Assembly: GCF_000526935.1 (NCBI RefSeq)
Contig: NZ_JAHA01000003.1
Coordinates: 186,001 to 250,000, forward strand
DNA length: 64,000 nt
Source: Butyrivibrio sp. FCS014
GTDB lineage: Bacteria > Bacillota > Clostridia > Lachnospirales > Lachnospiraceae
Reading direction: 5' to 3'
Part shown: positions 41,482 to 51,178 of the stretch, one piece after another
How the letters are laid out: each line of letters starts with the position of its first letter
How positions within the stretch are numbered: position 1 is the stretch's first letter
Notes under the pieces: generated by a model
What the model was told of the DNA's origin: nothing
The model's input: the letters and a program-made list of their open reading frames with translations, nothing else
Databases searched by the model: none
Made by a program: the position numbers and the translations under genes

Positions 41482-42873
41482 ATGGTCACGTTAAGAGACG
41501 TAGTAGTAATTACCAACAGCGAACTTGATATATTATCTGCAGATGACAACTACAGGGAGTATGTTTGCGAAAGCAGTGCTGACACTGTTTTTGCAAACGT
41601 TCATCCCGATGATCAGCATCTGCTGTACGAAATGGTAGAGACGCTTTCGGCCAAACCGGAAGCTTCTCTATGTTTTCGTGTCTGCAACAAAAAAGGCGAG
41701 TACTGCTGGGTAAGCGCCAGCTGCTCACGGGCTTCGGAGGATGATGAAGATAGCATCAGAATAGAACTCCGTGATCTTTCAAATCTTGATGACGGCGTCA
41801 AGGCCGTTGAAATCGACTATCTCACAGGACTTCTCAATAAAAAAGCGATAACTGATTATGCAAAGGGATTATGTGCCCCTGATGGGAAAAGGGGAATAGT
41901 AAACCTGTGCGTAATTGACATAGATAATTTCAAATATATCAACGACACTTACGGACATTCCTATGGAGACAGGATACTGAAGGAAGTTGCAGCCATCATT
42001 CGGGAGGTTCTGGGTGAGAACGGCAAAGCCGGCAGGATTGGCGGCGATGAGCTCATGATGACCATCGAGAATGTGGATGACAAAGGCAATCTTAGGGTAT
42101 TCCTTAAGGGGATAAGAGAGAGGGTTGAAGCTACCCACATCGATGAAAACGGATATCCTATGGTTACGGTATCCATGGGAATCGGAAAATTCCCCGATTA
42201 CGTTCAAAGCTACGATGAACTGTTTAATCTTGCAGACAGGATGCTTTACAGAGCCAAGAGCCGCGGCAAGAACAGATATGTGATCTATAATCCGGAAATC
42301 CACGGACCGATAGTAGATGGGCAGCTGGATGAGACTGCAATGACTGTCAGCCGTGCCACTGCCATAGACAAGACAAAGCTTGTTCTTGATGGCATGGAGG
42401 GGCTTCTGTATGCCGATACGGAATCTGTTTCTTCAATGCTGATGAAGATAGCTGCTACCTATGACCTGGATGAAGTATATCTCTTTTATAAGGATATAAA
42501 TAAGAGCTTCTATGGGCATAAACGCGCATCTGATTCGGGAAATAATGCCGAGAAGCGGATTTATCAGATTGTGGATTCCGTTTCTGATATTGCATATGTA
42601 ATGGAACCGGGGCTGCTTAACCGCTTTAATTCCAACGGAGTACTTGTTATAGATTCTCCCGGGATAGTTTTGAAGGAATTCCCAAAGGCTCTGGAATTTT
42701 TTGAGAAGAACGGTATAAAGCATGCATTCCTTTACAGAATGATTGATGCTCCTTTTGACGGATATATAGCCATGTATAACACCAGAGAATTGTCAAGGAA
42801 ATTCCCTCAGCCGGATATCACGGACCTTACATATTTGAGTAAAATGATGGAAATTGCATTAAAATCTAGATAA
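41482..42873 (+). CDS. PAS-GGDEF protein with a C-terminal sensor-like domain
   Basis: A 463-residue cytosolic protein. Residues about 1-108 resemble a PAS fold (HPDDQHLL and CWVSASCSR). The GGDEF domain (about 112-270) has DIDNFKYINDTYGH and RIGGDELMM (187-191 GGDEL), a permitted form of the active-site motif, so diguanylate cyclase activity is likely. Residues about 285-460 have a GAF-like pattern of alternating strands and helices, unassigned. No membrane segment is visible. It follows the phosphofructokinase gene by 28 bp with AGGAG before the ATG. Confidence 0.82.
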   Translation: MVTLRDVVVITNSELDILSADDNYREYVCESSADTVFANVHPDDQHLLYEMVETLSAKPEASLCFRVCNKKGEYCWVSASCSRASEDDEDSIRIELRDLSNLDDGVKAVEIDYLTGLLNKKAITDYAKGLCAPDGKRGIVNLCVIDIDNFKYINDTYGHSYGDRILKEVAAIIREVLGENGKAGRIGGDELMMTIENVDDKGNLRVFLKGIRERVEATHIDENGYPMVTVSMGIGKFPDYVQSYDELFNLADRMLYRAKSRGKNRYVIYNPEIHGPIVDGQLDETAMTVSRATAIDKTKLVLDGMEGLLYADTESVSSMLMKIAATYDLDEVYLFYKDINKSFYGHKRASDSGNNAEKRIYQIVDSVSDIAYVMEPGLLNRFNSNGVLVIDSPGIVLKEFPKALEFFEKNGIKHAFLYRMIDAPFDGYIAMYNTRELSRKFPQPDITDLTYLSKMMEIALKSR

Positions 42874-42931
42874 TTACGCACTTTTTTAGAATTTTTTTTT
42901 CTAAAAATACGCTAAAACAAGCACTTTGCTG

Positions 42932-42960
42932 TTGTTATGTGTACTTAATAGTAGTAAAAT
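42932..42960 (+). promoter_or_regulatory. Predicted promoter of the HU gene
   Basis: TTGTTA (42932-42937), 17 bp, TAAAAT (42955-42960), preceded by A/T-rich tracts (42881-42910) that could act as an UP element. The HU ATG lies 43 nt downstream after a GGAGGG site. Confidence 0.55.
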
Positions 42961-43002
42961 AGGCAATGTAGTAAATAAATTTCTATTTCGGAGGGAAAAT
43001 TA

Positions 43003-43281
43003 ATGAACAAGACAGAACTTATCGATGCAATTGCAAAGGAAGCTAACCTTTCCAAGAAGGATGCAACTGCAGCACTGAACGCTTTCACAGAGACAGTTAC
43101 AAAGGAGCTCAAGAAGAAAGGTAAAGTTCAGCTTGTTGGCTTCGGAACATTCGAGACAACAAAGAGAGCAGCTAGAACAGGTAAGAATCCTCAGACTGGC
43201 GCTGCTATCAAGATTCCTGCTTCTGTAGCACCTAAGTTCAAGGCTGGTAAGGCTCTTAAGGATCTTGTAAACAAGAAATAA
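43003..43281 (+). CDS. hup: DNA-binding protein HU
   Basis: Nucleoid-associated histone-like protein. The 92-residue sequence has the full HU layout: helical N-terminus MNKTELIDAIAKEANLSKKD, the conserved GFGTFE turn (residues 46-51), the beta-arm with RAARTGKNPQTG, then IPAS and FKAGKALKDLV. It is a single gene with its own promoter and terminator, as is usual for an abundant protein. The codon choice is strongly biased to major codons. Confidence 0.97.
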   Translation: MNKTELIDAIAKEANLSKKDATAALNAFTETVTKELKKKGKVQLVGFGTFETTKRAARTGKNPQTGAAIKIPASVAPKFKAGKALKDLVNKK

Positions 43282-43311
43282 TTTAAATCAGTAACAGACG
43301 GGCCGTCGCTT

Positions 43312-43344
43312 TGGATGTTGAGTCATCTAAGGTGACGGCTTTTT
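43312..43344 (+). terminator. Terminator of the HU gene
   Basis: Stem GCCGTC/GACGGC (43312-43317 and 43334-43339) extended inward by GGATG/CATCT-type pairs, followed by TTTTT (43340-43344). Confidence 0.8.
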
Positions 43345-43362
43345 GTGTTAACGGGGGAATTG

Positions 43363-44211
43363 ATGGTAGCTACAGTAATAACGGAAAGTAATTGTAAAGC
43401 TTTTATGCCCGGCCTTGACGACGAGCTGCTGAAAAACAGCGATATCTTTTTCGGGGCAGTGGATGAAGATACAAACACAGCAGTGGGTGTAATGGCGGTA
43501 AAGGACATAAAGGCAGAAGACGGAAAAGAGCTGGAGATAACCTATATCTATGTGAGTGAGGAATTTCGCGGCCGTGGAGCAGGAAGAGCCATGGTTGAAA
43601 TGCTAAAAACTTTTGCCATAGACTATGGGGCATTCGTAATATTATGTATAAGCAGTTTTAACATAGAAGATGCCGGAGTGCATGAACTTCTTTGTTCATG
43701 CGGATTCGATGAAGTTATAGACAGTACAAGTTCAACTTATGAAGCTTATCTTATGGATATTCACATTCCGGGAAAGGGTGAAGACAAAGGAATTGTTCCT
43801 TTGAGCAGCTTGTCCCGGAACAAGTGGAGGGCACTTGAGGCCAGATTTGATGAATCGGAGAAAAGAGATAACGCAAAATCCGGCCATATCATAAGACAAA
43901 GAGATTTCTATGATGAAGACATCAGCATGATCAGGCTGGGGCCCAAGGAGGAGATCCTTGGGGCGGTTTTAGTCAGTGCTTATGAGGATGTTATAAGTAT
44001 CGATGTATGTGCAGCCTTTGAAGGCGATGCCGGAAATATCATGCTTTCATTATTCAGAAGCAGCGCAAAAGAGGCTTACAGACTTTATGGCGGAGAGATT
44101 CTTGTGTCCGTCACACCGCCATCGGAGGAGATGTACAGGCTGTTTGAAAAATTCACAGGCGGACTGATGAGAAAATCAAGCGACACAGTTGCGCAGTATT
44201 ATGTGATCTGA
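43363..44211 (+). CDS. GNAT family N-acetyltransferase
   Basis: A 282-residue protein. Its first half (about 1-130) is a GNAT domain with the acetyl-CoA loop RGRGAGRAMVEML and preceding beta-strand ITYIYVSEEF. The second half (about 140-282) has similar strand-helix order and may be a second, degenerate GNAT unit. The substrate is unknown. I choose ATG 43363, with GGGGG upstream, over GTG 43345, which lies in the HU terminator. It ends 21 bp before the giant kinase-like gene, so the two are probably cotranscribed. Confidence 0.82.
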   Translation: MVATVITESNCKAFMPGLDDELLKNSDIFFGAVDEDTNTAVGVMAVKDIKAEDGKELEITYIYVSEEFRGRGAGRAMVEMLKTFAIDYGAFVILCISSFNIEDAGVHELLCSCGFDEVIDSTSSTYEAYLMDIHIPGKGEDKGIVPLSSLSRNKWRALEARFDESEKRDNAKSGHIIRQRDFYDEDISMIRLGPKEEILGAVLVSAYEDVISIDVCAAFEGDAGNIMLSLFRSSAKEAYRLYGGEILVSVTPPSEEMYRLFEKFTGGLMRKSSDTVAQYYVI

Positions 44212-44232
44212 TAATTAAACGGAGGTAGTACC

Positions 44233-47200
44233 ATGCTTGAGCACAATCTTAATGAGCAGCAGCTGCAGGTTCAAAGACCCGGCTTTACTCACCAGGTTAC
44301 AGAGGAGTACAGAGAACAATTTAATGCCATGGATGCCAATGAAAGATTGAACTATAAAAAGGAGCAGGCATTAAGGCTTGAACAAAGGGCCGACTGGCGT
44401 GAAATGAATCTGTCCAGGCATCTTACAGGTGTGGTAAGCCTTGATAAGTTCAAGATAAAGACTGCTCCGGACAAAACATCCCTGGTTTCGTCCTACACAG
44501 GTGTCAGAAAGAACCTTACTGCCCGGGAGAGAGCCGCAAAGATTCAAAACAGCCGCTCCAGGCTTTTTAAAAAGGCAGCTAATTCCACAGCTCTGAAGGA
44601 AGCTTCAAGGAAAGCTGCCAGTGAAAGCTATGAGAGAGCCGAAAAAGCTGCAGACAGCATAAGTGCAGGTCTCTCCATGGATAAAATAAGGGATCTGTCT
44701 TATTTTTGCGTGTCCGATAACGCAGAAGAGAACAAGCAGCTCATTAAATTGTACACAGGAGTCGGTATTGATCATCAGGATGGTTTTGATGAAAACATAT
44801 CGAAAAAAAAGGACAGATACCAGGCTCTTGATAAGATGACGGGAATACTTTTATCTCTTGACATAAGAAATCTTTCACTGGAAACAGACAAGGAAATCAT
44901 CAAAAATGCTGCTTTCCTTGAGAAGCTGCGCCTTATGGTCAGTGCCTACGAAAGAATTCTTCAGGAAAATCCCGATTATGAGAAGGCTATTAAGGATCCT
45001 GACATGAGCGAGATCCTTGTTCCCCAAAATGAAGGAAAGCTTAAGGCTACTTTCGAGGAAGTGAATAAAAAACTGGAGATATTAAGGTCCATAGCCACTT
45101 ATTATACTGCCAGAAAAGAGCTGATGACAGACAAATACTACAGGGAGCACTATGACTCTGAGCTTACTGTGGACGTAAGCGAGAACTCTTCTGAAGATGA
45201 GAAAAGGATTGCAGATAAGATCACAGCGGTTTATACTTCCGGACTGCATATGATGAAACTCAATGGTTCATCTGTAAAAACCATAAATAAGAGGGGAGGC
45301 TTTGGCGCCTTAAGAAATACTTATGCCTACAACAGATTGGCTAAAAGCGCGCATCTTCAGGAAAATAATGACAGAGCAAAGAAACTGCGCAGAGATTTTC
45401 TGATCAATAATTATGAAAAGGATGATGAGACGGCATGGAACCTCTATGAGAAGCTTCCGGAGCAGAGAACCGCACTTGTCAACAGAGCGGCAAGCGCCAT
45501 CAGGGACAAAAATTTCCTGATCGAGGGTATTCAGGAAGGCTATGAAGAACCTGCATTTACAGTAGATAAAATGAATGAGGCCATAAACAACTTTATGGAC
45601 ATGGACCTGAATCTGTTCAGGTTTAAGAGCTATAAAGAAATGTTTGAATTCTATGATTATAATCTGGAACTTGCAAGCAGGGTTGATAAGGTGCAGTACT
45701 ATCTTGGCAAGGGCCTGGTTAAGGGTATCAGGATCCCTGATGAGAGACTTATCAGTATCAGGGGAAGGATGCTTGCCTTTAATGAGATCCGTCAGACTCT
45801 GCACAGTGTCAGAGCATTTCTTTATTCAGATCAGGGCAATACCAAGGAGCAGAATTTTAAGGCCTGGGACGAGTTCTTCAAGATGAAGGCTATAAATTCC
45901 GATGTTGCGGCAATTCCTTGCAGGAGTATGGAAGCCTATGTGCAGAAATGTACGAGAAAACTGACAAGAGAGCACGCCGAGAGGGAAGTTGTGATCAAAA
46001 AGATGTGGAAGCTTACCGGCGAGAGGGGCAATCAGAAGATACCGGCTGAGTACCTCGCCAAAAAGAAGGCTGAATATCAGAAAAATGCAGCTATAGCAGA
46101 TTGTCTGATAAGCGAGAATCAGAAGACTGAGCTGGCAAAAGCCTGCTGTGAGCAGATTCTGAAGAAATACTGCGAAGATACTCCCCAAAAGCACCCTCAG
46201 GGATACAAAATGATGGACAGATGTGCCACCGACTACGTTGCGGGAAGACCGGTTGAGGAAATGAAGAGACTCTATGATCTGTGTACCGGTACGGATGAGG
46301 AGAAGCTGGAATTCTGGATGCAGATGTATAAAGATACGATGAGCATTAAGCCTGAAGAGTTTAATCCATGGCCTGTGGAGAAGTTCTTTGACAACATTTA
46401 TAAGAAGAATCATATGTTCCACGTCTTTGACAATGCTAATGTGATCGGAGAAAGAATCAGTGAGATTGTTACAAGGATGGGCCGGCAGGGAGCAGATAAA
46501 GCCGCACAGATCATGGGTGTAAAACCTGAGGATAAAGATAAAAAGCTAAATGAGATCAAAAGGGAAACAACGATTTTAAAGGACTTTGGTATTGGCTTTA
46601 TATCCGGAAGATTTGGCGCTGTTATCAGCGCAAAAAGCGATAAGTACAGAGCATTTTTCTCACTGGAGGATCTGTACGGAAAGATCAATGCTGACGAGTG
46701 CAGGAATCCTTTCCTGATGTCGCAGCAGGAACAGCGCGATATGGACATAGTGAATGACATTGCCCAGATTAACCGGATCTTTAATAAATTAGTATTCATA
46801 CAGGCGCCAATTGACATAAAGGAAGGCCAGCCCCGCATAGGCCTTAAGGATGATCTGGGACCCCTTTACAGGGAATATCAGAGAATCAAAGGTGAGCCCA
46901 TCACAAAAGCTTACTTTGTCCAGAACAGGGCGAGGCTTACTACTGAATATAATGACTGTTACGATGATTATATTAAGAATAATAAGCTGGCAAAAGAGCT
47001 GTCAAAGGACTTTGATATTCCTGAAGGAATTCCGGCAGGTGAAAATGAGAAGAAGGAAAGAAGCCGGAAAATAGAGAAAGCCTTTGAACACATTTTGTCT
47101 GTGGATGCCTCGGAGTTTAACATTGATACCTATGAAAAGCTCTTATCAAAGGATTCTGTGACGCTTCGTCATATGACAGAACTTGCATCCAAGGCGGCTC

Positions 47201-49416
47201 CTCTTTATGAGCAATATGTTCAGCTCAGGGAAGGCGGTAATGCGGGCTGCGTTCTGAACAGGAATGAACTGGCGGAGGTCAGGGCCAGAATAGATTTTCT
47301 TATTAAAGTTAACAAGTACTATAACGGCTCGGAAAATCTGCTTGATACCCTCGAGCAGGATAAGACCCTGAGCTTTTTCAAGGGTGCTTCAGTGGTTCTT
47401 GATGAAGAAAGAACCAGAGTTGCCAATGAAGCTCATTTGACAATCCAGCTCTCTGACGGATATGCAGCCCAGGCAATGAACAGGATTCTTGAAAGGCGTA
47501 TTTCTCTGGAATATGATCTTGGGAAAAAATTCTTCGAAACAGCAGGAAAAAATGACTACAGGGGTCTTGTGAATAAAATTAATAAAGAACTGAGTGGTAT
47601 AGAGCAAAATATCGCTACATTGAAAGCTCTTTTTACAAATCAGGATTTCCCTGCAGCTAAGGATAAGAATGCCAAGAGTACAATAGAGGGCATCACTGTT
47701 ATGGTGAATGCACTTTACAACAACATAATAGAGTCGGTAAAGCAGGCAAGAAGGCAGGCGCGGAGCAGAATAAAAAACAACTCGGGGCTTGTGGATTATA
47801 CTCCCATGATGGAACAGTTTGATGAGCTCATTAAAAGATGTCAGGAGGACAATGAGATGTTTGGCCAGAAGGCTAATGAGTATTTCACCTATGCGTCAAA
47901 TGATCCATTGCTTAAGAAACGCCCCGGAAAATGGATGGAGGTTCTTAAATTTGCCAGAGCCAGATTCTATGACACCGATCAGGAGGGAGTAAAGCTGAAA
48001 AAGGGCGGAGCCAATGTTTCCGATATCTATGTTATCAGCAGTGACAAGACAGGAAAGACAATATTCTTCAGAAAAGAGGATAATGCTCCCAGGCAGGACA
48101 TTAGGGACTGCATAACTGATGTTGCTAAGAGCGTTTACGGCAAGGATAAAAAAGGCCTGGAAATCGGTGAAAAATTCGGCTCTGTGTTATTTGGTATGCA
48201 AACCGTGAAAGAAGCAGCTAAGTATCAGGAAATATTGGATAAAATAGGAGCTGAGAAAAACGCTTTCGGAACAAAGGATAAAGATACCGGTATCACCAAG
48301 GGGTTTGCCGAAATCGGTATGGAAGTGAGCAGGGAATTTGCAGGACGTAATAAGGAACTTGATGAATTCCTTAAGACCGCCAAAAAAGATGATTACGAGA
48401 AACTTGGAAGGCTCTTTATAGGACTTCGGGACATGGATTTTAAGAGAGCGCTCTGCTTCAATACCAAAACAAGTGCAATGATAAAACCGGGAAGAAATCT
48501 GACAAACAGACATGTGGCAACCTCAAGACTGGCTAATTCCTTTGGTCTGGGAGATATTGTTTCCCCTTCAAGAACCGCTCAGATCAATGTCGGCGGTGAG
48601 CTGGTAAAAGGAAACCTCATGGAAGAGAGCGGAGGTCTTGAAATTATTGATATCGAGAATGTACAGGACTACAGATATTCCAACGAGGCTATAAAACAGC
48701 TCTTTTGCCTGCAGATATTTGACTTTCTTTGCGGACAGGTTGACAGGCACATGGGCAATTTCCACGTGATCATAGACAAAGAGAAGAAGCTCATAGTGGG
48801 CATAAAGGCCATAGATAATGACATGGCCCTGGGAAATTTAAAACCCCAGGACCTAAAACAAAAAAGAAGAAATCTGCTTCCGCTTGATGAAAGTTCCATT
48901 AAGGGCATGCCGGTGGAAATAGTAAACAAGATCATGTCGATTACAGAGGACACACTGCATGTAATGCTTGGTGATATATTGCAGCCGGATGAGATAAGCG
49001 ATCTGTATCTGAGAATTGAGTATTTCAAGACAAAGGTAAGAGAACTGGCCGGGGAAGATGAAAACATGAGCATCAAAACTACAACTCTCAAATACAATGA
49101 TAGTGAAGGCAATGCTGTTGAAAAAATTACCAACGAGGAAGTCTCCTATACCGGCATATATAAGAGCGATGATTTAAGGGCTGTTATGTCCCTTGATGCT
49201 GTAAAGAATCGGGTGATTCAGGAGAATAGAAAGAATAATATCCCAAATGAAAGGGCTCTTGCCCGGTTCGCCACAAAAGAACGTGAAGAAATAAGGCAGA
49301 AGACGACTTCGACTCAAAAAGTATCGCTTTTCTATCAGCCTATAGTGGGATCAACTTTTGAACTTCAGGAAAGAACGCAAAAAGAGATACTTAAGGCGCA
49401 ACAGAATAATCAGTAA
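44233..49416 (+). CDS. Giant unknown protein with a C-terminal PI3/4-kinase-like or FAM20-like kinase domain
   Basis: A 1727-residue (about 200 kDa) protein without signal peptide or membrane segment, so probably cytosolic. Residues 1 to about 1230 are rich in Glu, Lys and helix formers and match nothing I know. From about 1250 kinase-like landmarks appear in order: FFRKED with a possible ATP-binding Lys1281; a helix RHVATSRLANSFGLGDIV; QVDRHMGNFHV with Asp1504, His1506 and Asn1509 as in the DRHxxN catalytic loop; and AIDNDMALG with Asp1528 in the place of the DFG/IDxG metal-binding Asp. This order is that of PI3/4-kinase, HipA and FAM20-type folds. The substrate is unknown. Start is ATG 44233 after GGAGG. 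Composition is like the host genome. Confidence 0.7.
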   Translation: MLEHNLNEQQLQVQRPGFTHQVTEEYREQFNAMDANERLNYKKEQALRLEQRADWREMNLSRHLTGVVSLDKFKIKTAPDKTSLVSSYTGVRKNLTARERAAKIQNSRSRLFKKAANSTALKEASRKAASESYERAEKAADSISAGLSMDKIRDLSYFCVSDNAEENKQLIKLYTGVGIDHQDGFDENISKKKDRYQALDKMTGILLSLDIRNLSLETDKEIIKNAAFLEKLRLMVSAYERILQENPDYEKAIKDPDMSEILVPQNEGKLKATFEEVNKKLEILRSIATYYTARKELMTDKYYREHYDSELTVDVSENSSEDEKRIADKITAVYTSGLHMMKLNGSSVKTINKRGGFGALRNTYAYNRLAKSAHLQENNDRAKKLRRDFLINNYEKDDETAWNLYEKLPEQRTALVNRAASAIRDKNFLIEGIQEGYEEPAFTVDKMNEAINNFMDMDLNLFRFKSYKEMFEFYDYNLELASRVDKVQYYLGKGLVKGIRIPDERLISIRGRMLAFNEIRQTLHSVRAFLYSDQGNTKEQNFKAWDEFFKMKAINSDVAAIPCRSMEAYVQKCTRKLTREHAEREVVIKKMWKLTGERGNQKIPAEYLAKKKAEYQKNAAIADCLISENQKTELAKACCEQILKKYCEDTPQKHPQGYKMMDRCATDYVAGRPVEEMKRLYDLCTGTDEEKLEFWMQMYKDTMSIKPEEFNPWPVEKFFDNIYKKNHMFHVFDNANVIGERISEIVTRMGRQGADKAAQIMGVKPEDKDKKLNEIKRETTILKDFGIGFISGRFGAVISAKSDKYRAFFSLEDLYGKINADECRNPFLMSQQEQRDMDIVNDIAQINRIFNKLVFIQAPIDIKEGQPRIGLKDDLGPLYREYQRIKGEPITKAYFVQNRARLTTEYNDCYDDYIKNNKLAKELSKDFDIPEGIPAGENEKKERSRKIEKAFEHILSVDASEFNIDTYEKLLSKDSVTLRHMTELASKAAPLYEQYVQLREGGNAGCVLNRNELAEVRARIDFLIKVNKYYNGSENLLDTLEQDKTLSFFKGASVVLDEERTRVANEAHLTIQLSDGYAAQAMNRILERRISLEYDLGKKFFETAGKNDYRGLVNKINKELSGIEQNIATLKALFTNQDFPAAKDKNAKSTIEGITVMVNALYNNIIESVKQARRQARSRIKNNSGLVDYTPMMEQFDELIKRCQEDNEMFGQKANEYFTYASNDPLLKKRPGKWMEVLKFARARFYDTDQEGVKLKKGGANVSDIYVISSDKTGKTIFFRKEDNAPRQDIRDCITDVAKSVYGKDKKGLEIGEKFGSVLFGMQTVKEAAKYQEILDKIGAEKNAFGTKDKDTGITKGFAEIGMEVSREFAGRNKELDEFLKTAKKDDYEKLGRLFIGLRDMDFKRALCFNTKTSAMIKPGRNLTNRHVATSRLANSFGLGDIVSPSRTAQINVGGELVKGNLMEESGGLEIIDIENVQDYRYSNEAIKQLFCLQIFDFLCGQVDRHMGNFHVIIDKEKKLIVGIKAIDNDMALGNLKPQDLKQKRRNLLPLDESSIKGMPVEIVNKIMSITEDTLHVMLGDILQPDEISDLYLRIEYFKTKVRELAGEDENMSIKTTTLKYNDSEGNAVEKITNEEVSYTGIYKSDDLRAVMSLDAVKNRVIQENRKNNIPNERALARFATKEREEIRQKTTSTQKVSLFYQPIVGSTFELQERTQKEILKAQQNNQ

Positions 49417-49453
49417 GGAAATCAGATAACCATAGCCGCCGGGGATGTGTCCA

Positions 49454-49487
49454 TTGAAATAATCATAAATATTTTATAAAATATAAT
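49454..49487 (+). promoter_or_regulatory. Possible promoter of the EAL gene
   Basis: TTGAAA (49454-49459) lies upstream of TATAAA (49475-49480, 15-bp spacing) and TATAAT (49482-49487). Spacing is imperfect in both cases. The region is very A/T-rich, and the ATG is at 49517 with AAGGAG before it. Confidence 0.4.
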
Positions 49488-49516
49488 TACATTTATTTTT
49501 TGACAAGGAGCCATTA

Positions 49517-51178
49517 ATGACGTTTGATAGGAGTTTTGAAAATTTCGTTCAAATACTCTCGGAAGAAGAGGTTACCCCTGAAATATCCCCCAGCGCTCTG
49601 GCGGACATATCCAAGGAGTTTTCTTTGCGTTCCATTGTGGCGATAGTTTCCTACAAGTCCTATTCAGATAAGGCAGGTGAACCGGATACCATCATTCCGC
49701 TTTTTGGTCCCGTTCCTAACGAAGAGGCTTCCACATATATGTTTAAGAGCAATATGTCGGGAGACCGTGAGATCACCTACAGGGTTTACCTTGCCGACAA
49801 CAAGAAGCTTACGGACGAGCAGTACAGAAGCTTCTCTGTGATTGTGGATATTCTTTCCTTCCACATGGAGAGATTCCTTCTTGTGAATGTTGTTAAGAAA
49901 AGTGCGCTTACCCAGTATCTTACCGGGCTTCCCAATTCCGGAGGTTTCCTTGCTTTTGTAAGCAGCAAGTTTGAAAGCGGCGAGATCATGAATTATGACG
50001 CTTTCTATTTCAACATTAAAAGTTTTGGTCTTATCAGCCGCAGATTTGGAATCGGCGAGGGTGATGAGATCATGAAGCGCTACGCCAGAAAGCTTAAGGA
50101 GTTCTTTGAGAAAGATGAGATCCTTGCCCACTTCGGAGGAGACAACTTCACAGCTCTGGTTAAGAAGGAGAGAACCAAGAAGTTCCTTAAGTATATTGCA
50201 GCTGTACCTGTGCGGGGAGAAAAGAACGGCAAGGAGGAAGAATTTACCCTCTCTGCTGTAGCAGGTGTGTATGCTATTGATGAATCCATGAAAAGCCCAA
50301 GCCAGGCAATCTCCAGATCTGTCATGGCCTGCAATTATGCCAAGAATGTGGCCAACAAACCTTACGTATTTGTCAACAAGGCCATGAGCACCAGGATATA
50401 CAGGCAGAAGCAGATAGAAGACAGATATGAAGAGGCTCTTGCCAATGATGAGTTCAGAATCTATCTTCAACCCAAGGTCAACACGGAAAGCGGCAGGATA
50501 GTGGGAGCTGAGGCTCTTGCCAGGTGGTTTTGCAACGGCATAGTTCTTTATCCTACCGAATTTGTTCCTATCCTTGAGCAGGAGGGAATGGTCGCTTCAC
50601 TGGATCTTTATGTTCTGAAAAAGACCTGTGAATATATCAGGGAGTGGCTTGATAACGGAATAGAGCCGGTTCAGGTGTCCGTGAATTTTTCAAGGCGTGA
50701 TTTAAGTTACAAGGATCTTGCCAGGGCTATCAGCGAGACCATAGAAGAGTACAGGATCGATCCCAAATACATCGAGATAGAGGTTACCGAAACCGCCAGC
50801 GAGGATGAGAGGGTCATGATGACCAACTTCCTTGCGAAACTAAAGGACATGAAGATAGCCACAGCCATCGATGATTTCGGAACAGGATATTCCTCTCTTT
50901 CAACTCTCAGAGATTTCCCGGTATCCGTCATTAAGATAGACAGATCTTTTATCAATAATGATGAGCTCAATACCAACGACGAGATTGTTTTAAAGAACAT
51001 CATTACCATGGCAAGGGAACTTGGAATAGACGTGGTGACTGAGGGAGTTGAAAGACCCGATCAGACGGAACTTTTAAAGAACGTTGGCTGTAATGTGGTC
51101 CAGGGCTTCTTATATGACAATCCCATGCCCAAGAAGGACTTTGAAAAGAGACTTATCAAGGGCGTATATGAAGATTAA
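49517..51178 (+). CDS. c-di-GMP phosphodiesterase: degenerate GGDEF plus intact EAL domain
   Basis: A 553-residue cytosolic protein. Residues about 1-125 form an unassigned sensor-like region. The GGDEF domain (about 130-290) has GGDNF (207-211) in place of GGDEF, so it is probably not catalytic and may bind GTP. The EAL domain (about 300-553) keeps the active-site residues: EAL (Glu332), VNFSRRDL (Asn), EVTETA (Glu), DDFGTGYSSL (Asp452, Asp453), IKIDRSF (Lys473) and TEGVE (Glu). c-di-GMP hydrolysis to pGpG is therefore likely. It follows the giant gene but has its own possible promoter and a terminator. Confidence 0.9.
   Translation: MTFDRSFENFVQILSEEEVTPEISPSALADISKEFSLRSIVAIVSYKSYSDKAGEPDTIIPLFGPVPNEEASTYMFKSNMSGDREITYRVYLADNKKLTDEQYRSFSVIVDILSFHMERFLLVNVVKKSALTQYLTGLPNSGGFLAFVSSKFESGEIMNYDAFYFNIKSFGLISRRFGIGEGDEIMKRYARKLKEFFEKDEILAHFGGDNFTALVKKERTKKFLKYIAAVPVRGEKNGKEEEFTLSAVAGVYAIDESMKSPSQAISRSVMACNYAKNVANKPYVFVNKAMSTRIYRQKQIEDRYEEALANDEFRIYLQPKVNTESGRIVGAEALARWFCNGIVLYPTEFVPILEQEGMVASLDLYVLKKTCEYIREWLDNGIEPVQVSVNFSRRDLSYKDLARAISETIEEYRIDPKYIEIEVTETASEDERVMMTNFLAKLKDMKIATAIDDFGTGYSSLSTLRDFPVSVIKIDRSFINNDELNTNDEIVLKNIITMARELGIDVVTEGVERPDQTELLKNVGCNVVQGFLYDNPMPKKDFEKRLIKGVYED

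Follow-up and report, generated by a model that had tools for sequence, protein, structure and literature searches.

The stretch of DNA analysed here (the window, 64,000 nucleotides) encodes a 1727-residue protein that is probably a modular, eCIS-associated effector (eCIS, extracellular contractile injection system), with a C-terminal domain resembling FAM20 and type II phosphatidylinositol 4-kinases (PI4KII) and a GNAT-fold partner encoded next to it. An eCIS effector is the best-supported function, by association. Several observations argue for it: the N-terminal module of the protein, termed N1, was seen in 23 genomes, all of them sheath-positive; the genome that contains the window carries an eCIS-type locus; relatives of the kinase-like, N1 and GNAT genes lie beside a gene for a WHD-AAA ATPase; and the window's genome also encodes another N1 protein, with a protease domain of calpain type. 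Because N1 was seen only in relatives with a contractile-sheath gene, the protein looks more like the payload of an injection machine than a housekeeping kinase. The original prediction had listed an effector-like role among its options, and we infer from N1-sheath co-occurrence and from AAA adjacency that this option is the one to retain.

The gene pair and its modules

Re-reading the sequence recovered the predicted 1727-residue open reading frame, which begins with an ATG preceded by GGAGG, and the GNAT reading frame placed 21 bp upstream of it, which indeed ends 21 bp before the kinase start codon. The features are as follows.

43345..44211, + strand: GNAT-family partner, 288 aa (Pfam; the ATG at 43363, in frame, could also be the start)
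44233..49416, + strand: kinase-like protein ORF, 1727 aa, proposed eCIS-associated effector (ORF and translation)
44233..44436, + strand: polar N-terminal tail, residues 1-68, rich in Q, N and E (translation)
44290..45492, + strand: N1 module, residues ~20-420 (jackhmmer and alignment A5, 22 sequences)
45490..46962, + strand: M1 module, residues ~420-910 (boundary placed by the analyst; common to other N1 proteins)
47788..49164, + strand: kinase-like domain, residues 1186-1644 (family HMM; alignments A1, A2 and A3)
48004..48021, + strand: GGANVS, glycine-rich-loop-like, residues 1258-1263 (Gly1259 in 51/63 aligned domains, Ser1263 in 48/63)
48070..48072, + strand: Arg1280, beta-3-like position, aligned with the lysine of the family (column K 24, T 18, R 11, gap 7; n = 63)
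48742..48759, + strand: DRHMGN, catalytic-loop-like, residues 1504-1509 (D 60, R 63, N 61; n = 63)
48811..48822, + strand: IDND, metal-site-like, residues 1527-1530 (Asp1528 in 58/63, Asp1530 in 55/63)

Scans of the whole protein against Pfam and NCBIfam returned no significant family, and a single-sequence search of PDB sequences returned no significant relative. The PHROGs phage library, scanned with the window protein and nine neighbours, likewise gave no significant family for the window protein. The first residues are polar and, by eye, contain no hydrophobic stretch, in agreement with the predicted absence of an export signal. The tail formed by residues 1-68 may act as a loading signal, which in eCIS cargo is a disordered N-terminal stretch of about 50-70 residues. 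A content of the amino acids ILMFVWYC lower in residues 1-60 than in the remaining chain was seen in 57 of 70 family proteins, compared to 95 of 200 other long ORFs.

The ~1230 residues ahead of the kinase-like domain had been described as matching nothing recognisable. This description no longer holds, as the region can be assigned to N1 and M1, families common to other giant proteins. In jackhmmer searches with parts of the protein, both N1 (20-420) and M1 (420-910) recurred in other giants, with or without a kinase domain, and M1 is common to N1 proteins such as L004, L007, L009, L025 and L090. The N1 profile found no relative among PDB sequences at E ≤ 5, and DUF4157 is absent both from the window protein, as judged by Pfam, and from N1.

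A Pfam scan of eight N1 proteins gave a match for one and nothing for the other seven. The exception (L082:6767-10942) comes from the same genome as the window, designated G000, and is a 1392-residue N1 protein in which a protease domain of calpain type was recognised (Peptidase_C2, E = 3.6e-7; 30 bits, the cut-off being 23.8). Its translation includes QGITGDCYLL, which contains a QGxxGDC motif. The gene adjoins one for a GGDEF protein. Four further giants were compared with Pfam; those of G007, G472 and G468 gave no match, and that of G477 gave ABC1-like matches. Taken as a set, the kinase and N1 proteins occur as many divergent copies per genome, with open frames of 646-3483 aa and variable ends that include the calpain protease.

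The GNAT reading frame of the window matches Acetyltransf_1 with E = 3.7e-10. This is a single GNAT match, in the first half of the protein, and no known fold is assigned to the second half. The pairing of the two genes recurs in relatives: 25 of 33 kinase genes have a GNAT homologue no more than two ORFs away. Within 300 bp and on the same strand, 45/61 GNAT genes have a neighbour of 600 aa or more, versus 43/162 other ORFs of comparable size (P = 2e-10). These counts come from non-redundant fetched regions that were picked because they contained hits to kinase, GNAT, AAA or sheath, and hence they are not genome-wide rates. Among the eight kinase genes that lack a GNAT neighbour, three (L073, L105, L106) adjoin an AAA gene and two (L083, L085) are from sheath-negative genomes. 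The motif [RQ]xxGx[GA] is missing in 11 of 28 aligned GNATs, a selection made by the analyst, and is retained by the GNAT of the window. An ABC1-like atypical kinase domain was observed in two GNAT-paired giants, L084:1-4596 and L144:808-8166.

The kinase-like domain

Relatives of the C-terminal domain were collected from three sources. The first came from a search of 61 genomes, 13 of which were positive, all of the same genus; others came from a scan of genome contigs (10 loci, all from Lachnospiraceae or Butyrivibrio MAGs) and from 397 genomes of the family (22 positive). Alignment A3 holds 63 of the 65 collected domains, two short fragments being omitted. Against the profile of the smaller alignment A2, of which the window protein is itself a member, the window domain scores 432 bits. 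In two cases, two kinase-like domains were seen in tandem within a single ORF (L033:819-5261 and L073:8814-12992).

The motifs QVDRHMGNF and AIDND are present as predicted, with Asp1504, Asn1509 and Asp1528 at the expected residues. Conservation among homologues was proposed for these three residues and for Lys1281, and it is borne out for the former (60, 61 and 58 of 63, respectively) and fails for the latter (15 of 63). Because the motif series is conserved across 63 aligned relatives, it is beyond chance. The assignment of Lys1281 as the ATP-binding lysine was dropped, as column 1281 holds K in just 15 of the domains. In the window protein, FFRKED supplies Arg1280-Lys1281, and the column that is commonly basic is 1280, a placement that depends on the alignment, where the window residue is Arg.

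Whether the window domain has kinase activity is uncertain, because the lysine column is variable, the window residue in it is Arg, and Lys1281 is unconserved. One alternative, compatible with the eCIS-effector reading, is that the fold is kinase-like and the protein is no kinase but a pseudokinase or another transferase, such as an AMPylase or a glutamylase. We regard this as somewhat unlikely. The composition of column 1280 (just 24 K, besides 18 T and 11 R, among the 63 domains) speaks for it, but the Asp and Asn residues of the catalytic loop and metal site are near-invariant, which argues that chemistry on ATP has been retained.

PI3_PI4_kinase (PF00454) matches 28 of the 63 domains at E ≤ 0.1 (best 8.6e-9), and Fam20C (PF06702) matches 24 at the same threshold (best 1.3e-6). 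Searched against PDB sequences, the A3 profile found PI4K2B (E = 6.1e-5), zebrafish Fam20C1 (E = 1.8e-4) and FAM20C (E = 5e-4), and the A2 profile placed Fam20B on top (E = 0.0032). Homology deduced from sequence makes it nearly certain that the C-terminal domain is a member of a divergent kinase-like family with PI4KII and FAM20 among its relatives. Of the three types named in the original prediction, PI3/4-kinase and FAM20 are thus supported by profile, HipA being much the weakest. HipA_C matches two of the 63 domains, the window domain not among them, with a best E of 0.018, and the neighbouring gene encodes a GNAT; membership in the HipA family was rejected, and the likeness is limited to the general order of kinase-fold motifs.

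The likeness to the FAM20 secreted kinases (PF06702; FAM20C and glycosaminoglycan xylosylkinase) spans the catalytic loop, the metal site and ~80 residues beyond it in the alignment with 5xom. Unlike FAM20 kinases, however, the window domain scores 13.9 bits against Fam20C, under the curated cut-off of 26.8, has a long insert before its catalytic half, and is part of a giant modular protein that has no hydrophobic signal stretch. With type II phosphatidylinositol 4-kinases and PF00454, the family shares the aligned pattern QxxxLxxLDxxxxxxDRxxxN ... IxaIDN. The window domain differs from these in having no PF00454 match at E ≤ 0.1, Fam20C alone being listed for it at that threshold.

Contractile sheath, AAA ATPase and rival readings

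A sheath gene is present in 22 of 61 genomes of the genus and 78 of 397 genomes of the family. N1 was found in 16 of the genus genomes (P = 3.7e-10) and in 8 of the family genomes, all of them sheath-positive; since G000 belongs to both samples, N1 was seen in 23 distinct genomes. No sheath-negative genome of either sample contained it. The kinase family occurs in 23 of the genus genomes, 18 of which are sheath-positive (P = 1.2e-7), and the five with no sheath match are G018, G457, G462, G464 and G471. Among the family genomes it occurs in 22, ten with a sheath gene and 12 without (P = 0.004). The GNAT family, at a best E < 1e-20, was found in 24 genus genomes, 21 of them sheath-positive (P = 3.4e-12); this threshold was set after the list had been viewed, the next best value being 1.8e-12. 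GNAT occurs without sheath in G003, G018 and G462, and sheath without GNAT in G026. Two sheath-positive genomes, G026 and G032, have neither an N1 nor a kinase match. One caveat here is that the P values are from Fisher tests, which ignore kinship and the incompleteness of MAGs, and some of the genomes are closely related. The distribution of the kinase family led to the rejection of a housekeeping role: the family occurs in 2 of 398 genomes of a phylum sample, both Lachnospiraceae, and in 23/61 of the genus.

The genome of the window contains both a contractile injection locus and a WHD-AAA ATPase (variant winged-helix domain, PF22977), which is Pvc15-like and putatively serves in loading. 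The eCIS-type locus lies outside the window, on contig C6 (L119-L120, L099-L100), and by Pfam comprises sheath, gp19 tube, DUF4280/PAAR, gp25, two Baseplate_J and Tail_P2_I. In the PDB, sheath and tube both find chains from Pvc, Afp and further injection systems, and one gene order at the sheath locus was read in G000, G240, G101, G022 and G026. At the equivalent gene position of the sheath locus, G101 has Pvc16_N, in a protein that has no PDB match at E ≤ 0.01. In G000, the WHD-AAA gene is at C6:260k and the structural genes are ~60 kb off, at C6:197.8k. The presence of eCIS structural genes beside the AAA gene at C6:260k was considered, and Pfam found none there. The window gene is on contig C3, not beside the locus and unlinked to it in this assembly, and a kinase paralogue of the same genome lies ~22 kb from the sheath gene on C6. 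Several N1 loci are found near the sheath gene in other genomes: four separate ones within ~41 kb in G240 and two within ~47 kb in G472. Just past the WHD-AAA gene of G000, L100:7288-15583 encodes an acyl-carboxylase, a thioesterase, an acyltransferase and a 1681-aa ketosynthase/AMP-binding/aminotransferase protein.

WHD-AAA genes were noticed next to kinase genes. They were found in 8 of 14 kinase-positive genomes versus none of 12 genomes of the same genus without the kinase family, and sheath (PF04984) was found in 12 of the 14, with one match each and open frames of 571-608 aa. In the fetched regions, whose choice was guided by kinase, GNAT or AAA hits, 9 of 14 AAA genes have a gene of one of three types (kinase, N1, GNAT) at a distance of 6-67 bp. 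Such proximity is also what one might see if the protein stayed in the cell that makes it, as a factor that controls or builds the injection system (a kinase of its assembly, firing or release), and were never itself injected. In G410, G021, G101 and G007 the kinase gene is 6-25 bp from the AAA gene, and genes for a SpoIIE phosphatase, a histidine kinase and other signalling proteins are common nearby, both of which favour an in-cell role. However, the many divergent copies, with their variable length and ends, resemble a set of payloads more than a single regulator, and we consider such a role unlikely.

A third explanation holds that the kinase-like protein and its GNAT form a cytosolic conflict system (toxin-antitoxin or anti-phage) with a kinase-like toxin, found together with eCIS only because the genomes are rich in accessory genes. 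The kinase tree, built from the 63 rows of A3 and leaving off the kinases of G457, G464, G471 and G462, bears on this point. Fifteen rows from sheath-negative family genomes fall inside one group of 19 (support 98/96), the other four being from sheath-positive G034 and from three ungrouped entries, two of which belong to sheathless G018. The sheath label changes twice on this tree, compared to 13.3 times in shuffles, and the window domain clusters with sheath-positive genomes. In the lysine column, 14 of the 15 rows from sheath-negative genomes have Thr. Because these 15 rows group together, some of the superfamily gets by without a sheath-type machine, and this second, sheath-free branch, as judged from the tree, probably does something else. 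Sheath-free Lachnospiraceae kinases of this branch were seen at L047, L050-L058, L067, L069 and L070. A conflict system would account for this related clade in sheathless genomes, for the tight GNAT-kinase pairing (25/33), for the lack of linkage between the window pair and the eCIS locus, and for ABC1/TCAD9-like matches in two GNAT-paired giants. It would not account for the restriction of N1 to sheath-positive genomes in two samples, nor for kinase, N1 and GNAT genes that directly adjoin an eCIS-type AAA gene, and we consider it quite improbable.

The eCIS-effector reading has evidence against it as well. Window gene and eCIS locus are not linked, most genomes of a related kinase clade lack a sheath, and G026 and G032 have a sheath gene with neither N1 nor kinase. 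In addition, Arg occupies the lysine position, the window domain falls below Pfam cut-offs, and DUF4157 is found neither in the window protein nor in N1.

Proposed route of the putative effector

If the protein is an eCIS effector, its polar N-terminus together with N1 and M1 would take it to the particle, aided by the Pvc15-like AAA ATPase, and the GNAT-fold partner would stabilise, modify or escort the cargo ahead of loading. After injection, the C-terminal domain would modify a target-cell protein or lipid with phosphate or some other portion of ATP. That the target is eukaryotic, for example gut protozoa or fungi, is a guess and the weakest step of the scheme; it is made because the enzyme types are eukaryotic-like.

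Pvc15, of the Photorhabdus virulence cassette, uses polar signals at the N-terminus of its cargo for loading, and has an N domain similar to DNA-binding proteins (PMC11495950). Shared with Pvc15-loaded cargo are a polar N-terminus, an AAA ATPase whose N domain is DNA-binding-like and, in relatives, cargo genes near the ATPase gene. The window protein differs in being far larger and in having an N1 module, a GNAT partner and a gram-positive host, and its loading is putative. In PMC9758233, the Legionella effector kinases LepB and AnkK are grouped with FAM20/CotH; they too are kinase-like proteins that bacteria inject and that lie near the FAM20 group. They use a type IV system for delivery, unlike the eCIS proposed here. 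Toxins of eCIS in Firmicutes are already in print, often with DUF4157 (PMC8213781, PMC11297309). This domain is frequent and not universal among them, and the window protein has no Pfam match to it. Our search of open-licence PMC full texts found no paper on such a system in Butyrivibrio, Lachnospiraceae or the rumen; a cockroach-gut paper was among the matches.

A more ambitious reading, which we put forward tentatively, is that gut Lachnospiraceae have an eCIS with an arsenal of giant effectors, each made of a constant N1 and an exchangeable end and each served by a GNAT-fold chaperone. The ends would be FAM20/PI4KII-like kinases, calpain-like proteases and others of unassigned kind. Many of the GNAT partners, having lost the acetyl-CoA motif (11/28 aligned), would be cargo chaperones rather than acetyltransferases. 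If true, both the effector class and the type of loading partner would be new, and eukaryotes of the rumen and gut would be possible targets. Should the eCIS-effector reading itself be true, common bacteria of the gut and rumen would own a weapon derived from phage tails and loaded with enzymes of eukaryotic-like type, and whom these bacteria inject would become testable. N1, as a packaging module, and the GNAT-fold partner would then offer handles on the loading of very large cargo.

Within the window, a 92-codon ORF at 43003-43281, upstream of the GNAT gene, presumably encodes an HU-like DNA-binding protein, as read by eye. A terminator-like hairpin (43300-43341) lies between this ORF and the GNAT gene. 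Across 42800-49700, terminators were at chance level and promoter-like sites were in slight excess over shuffles. Signalling proteins of GGDEF type (41482-42873) and GGDEF/EAL type (49517-51178), recognised by eye, flank the region.
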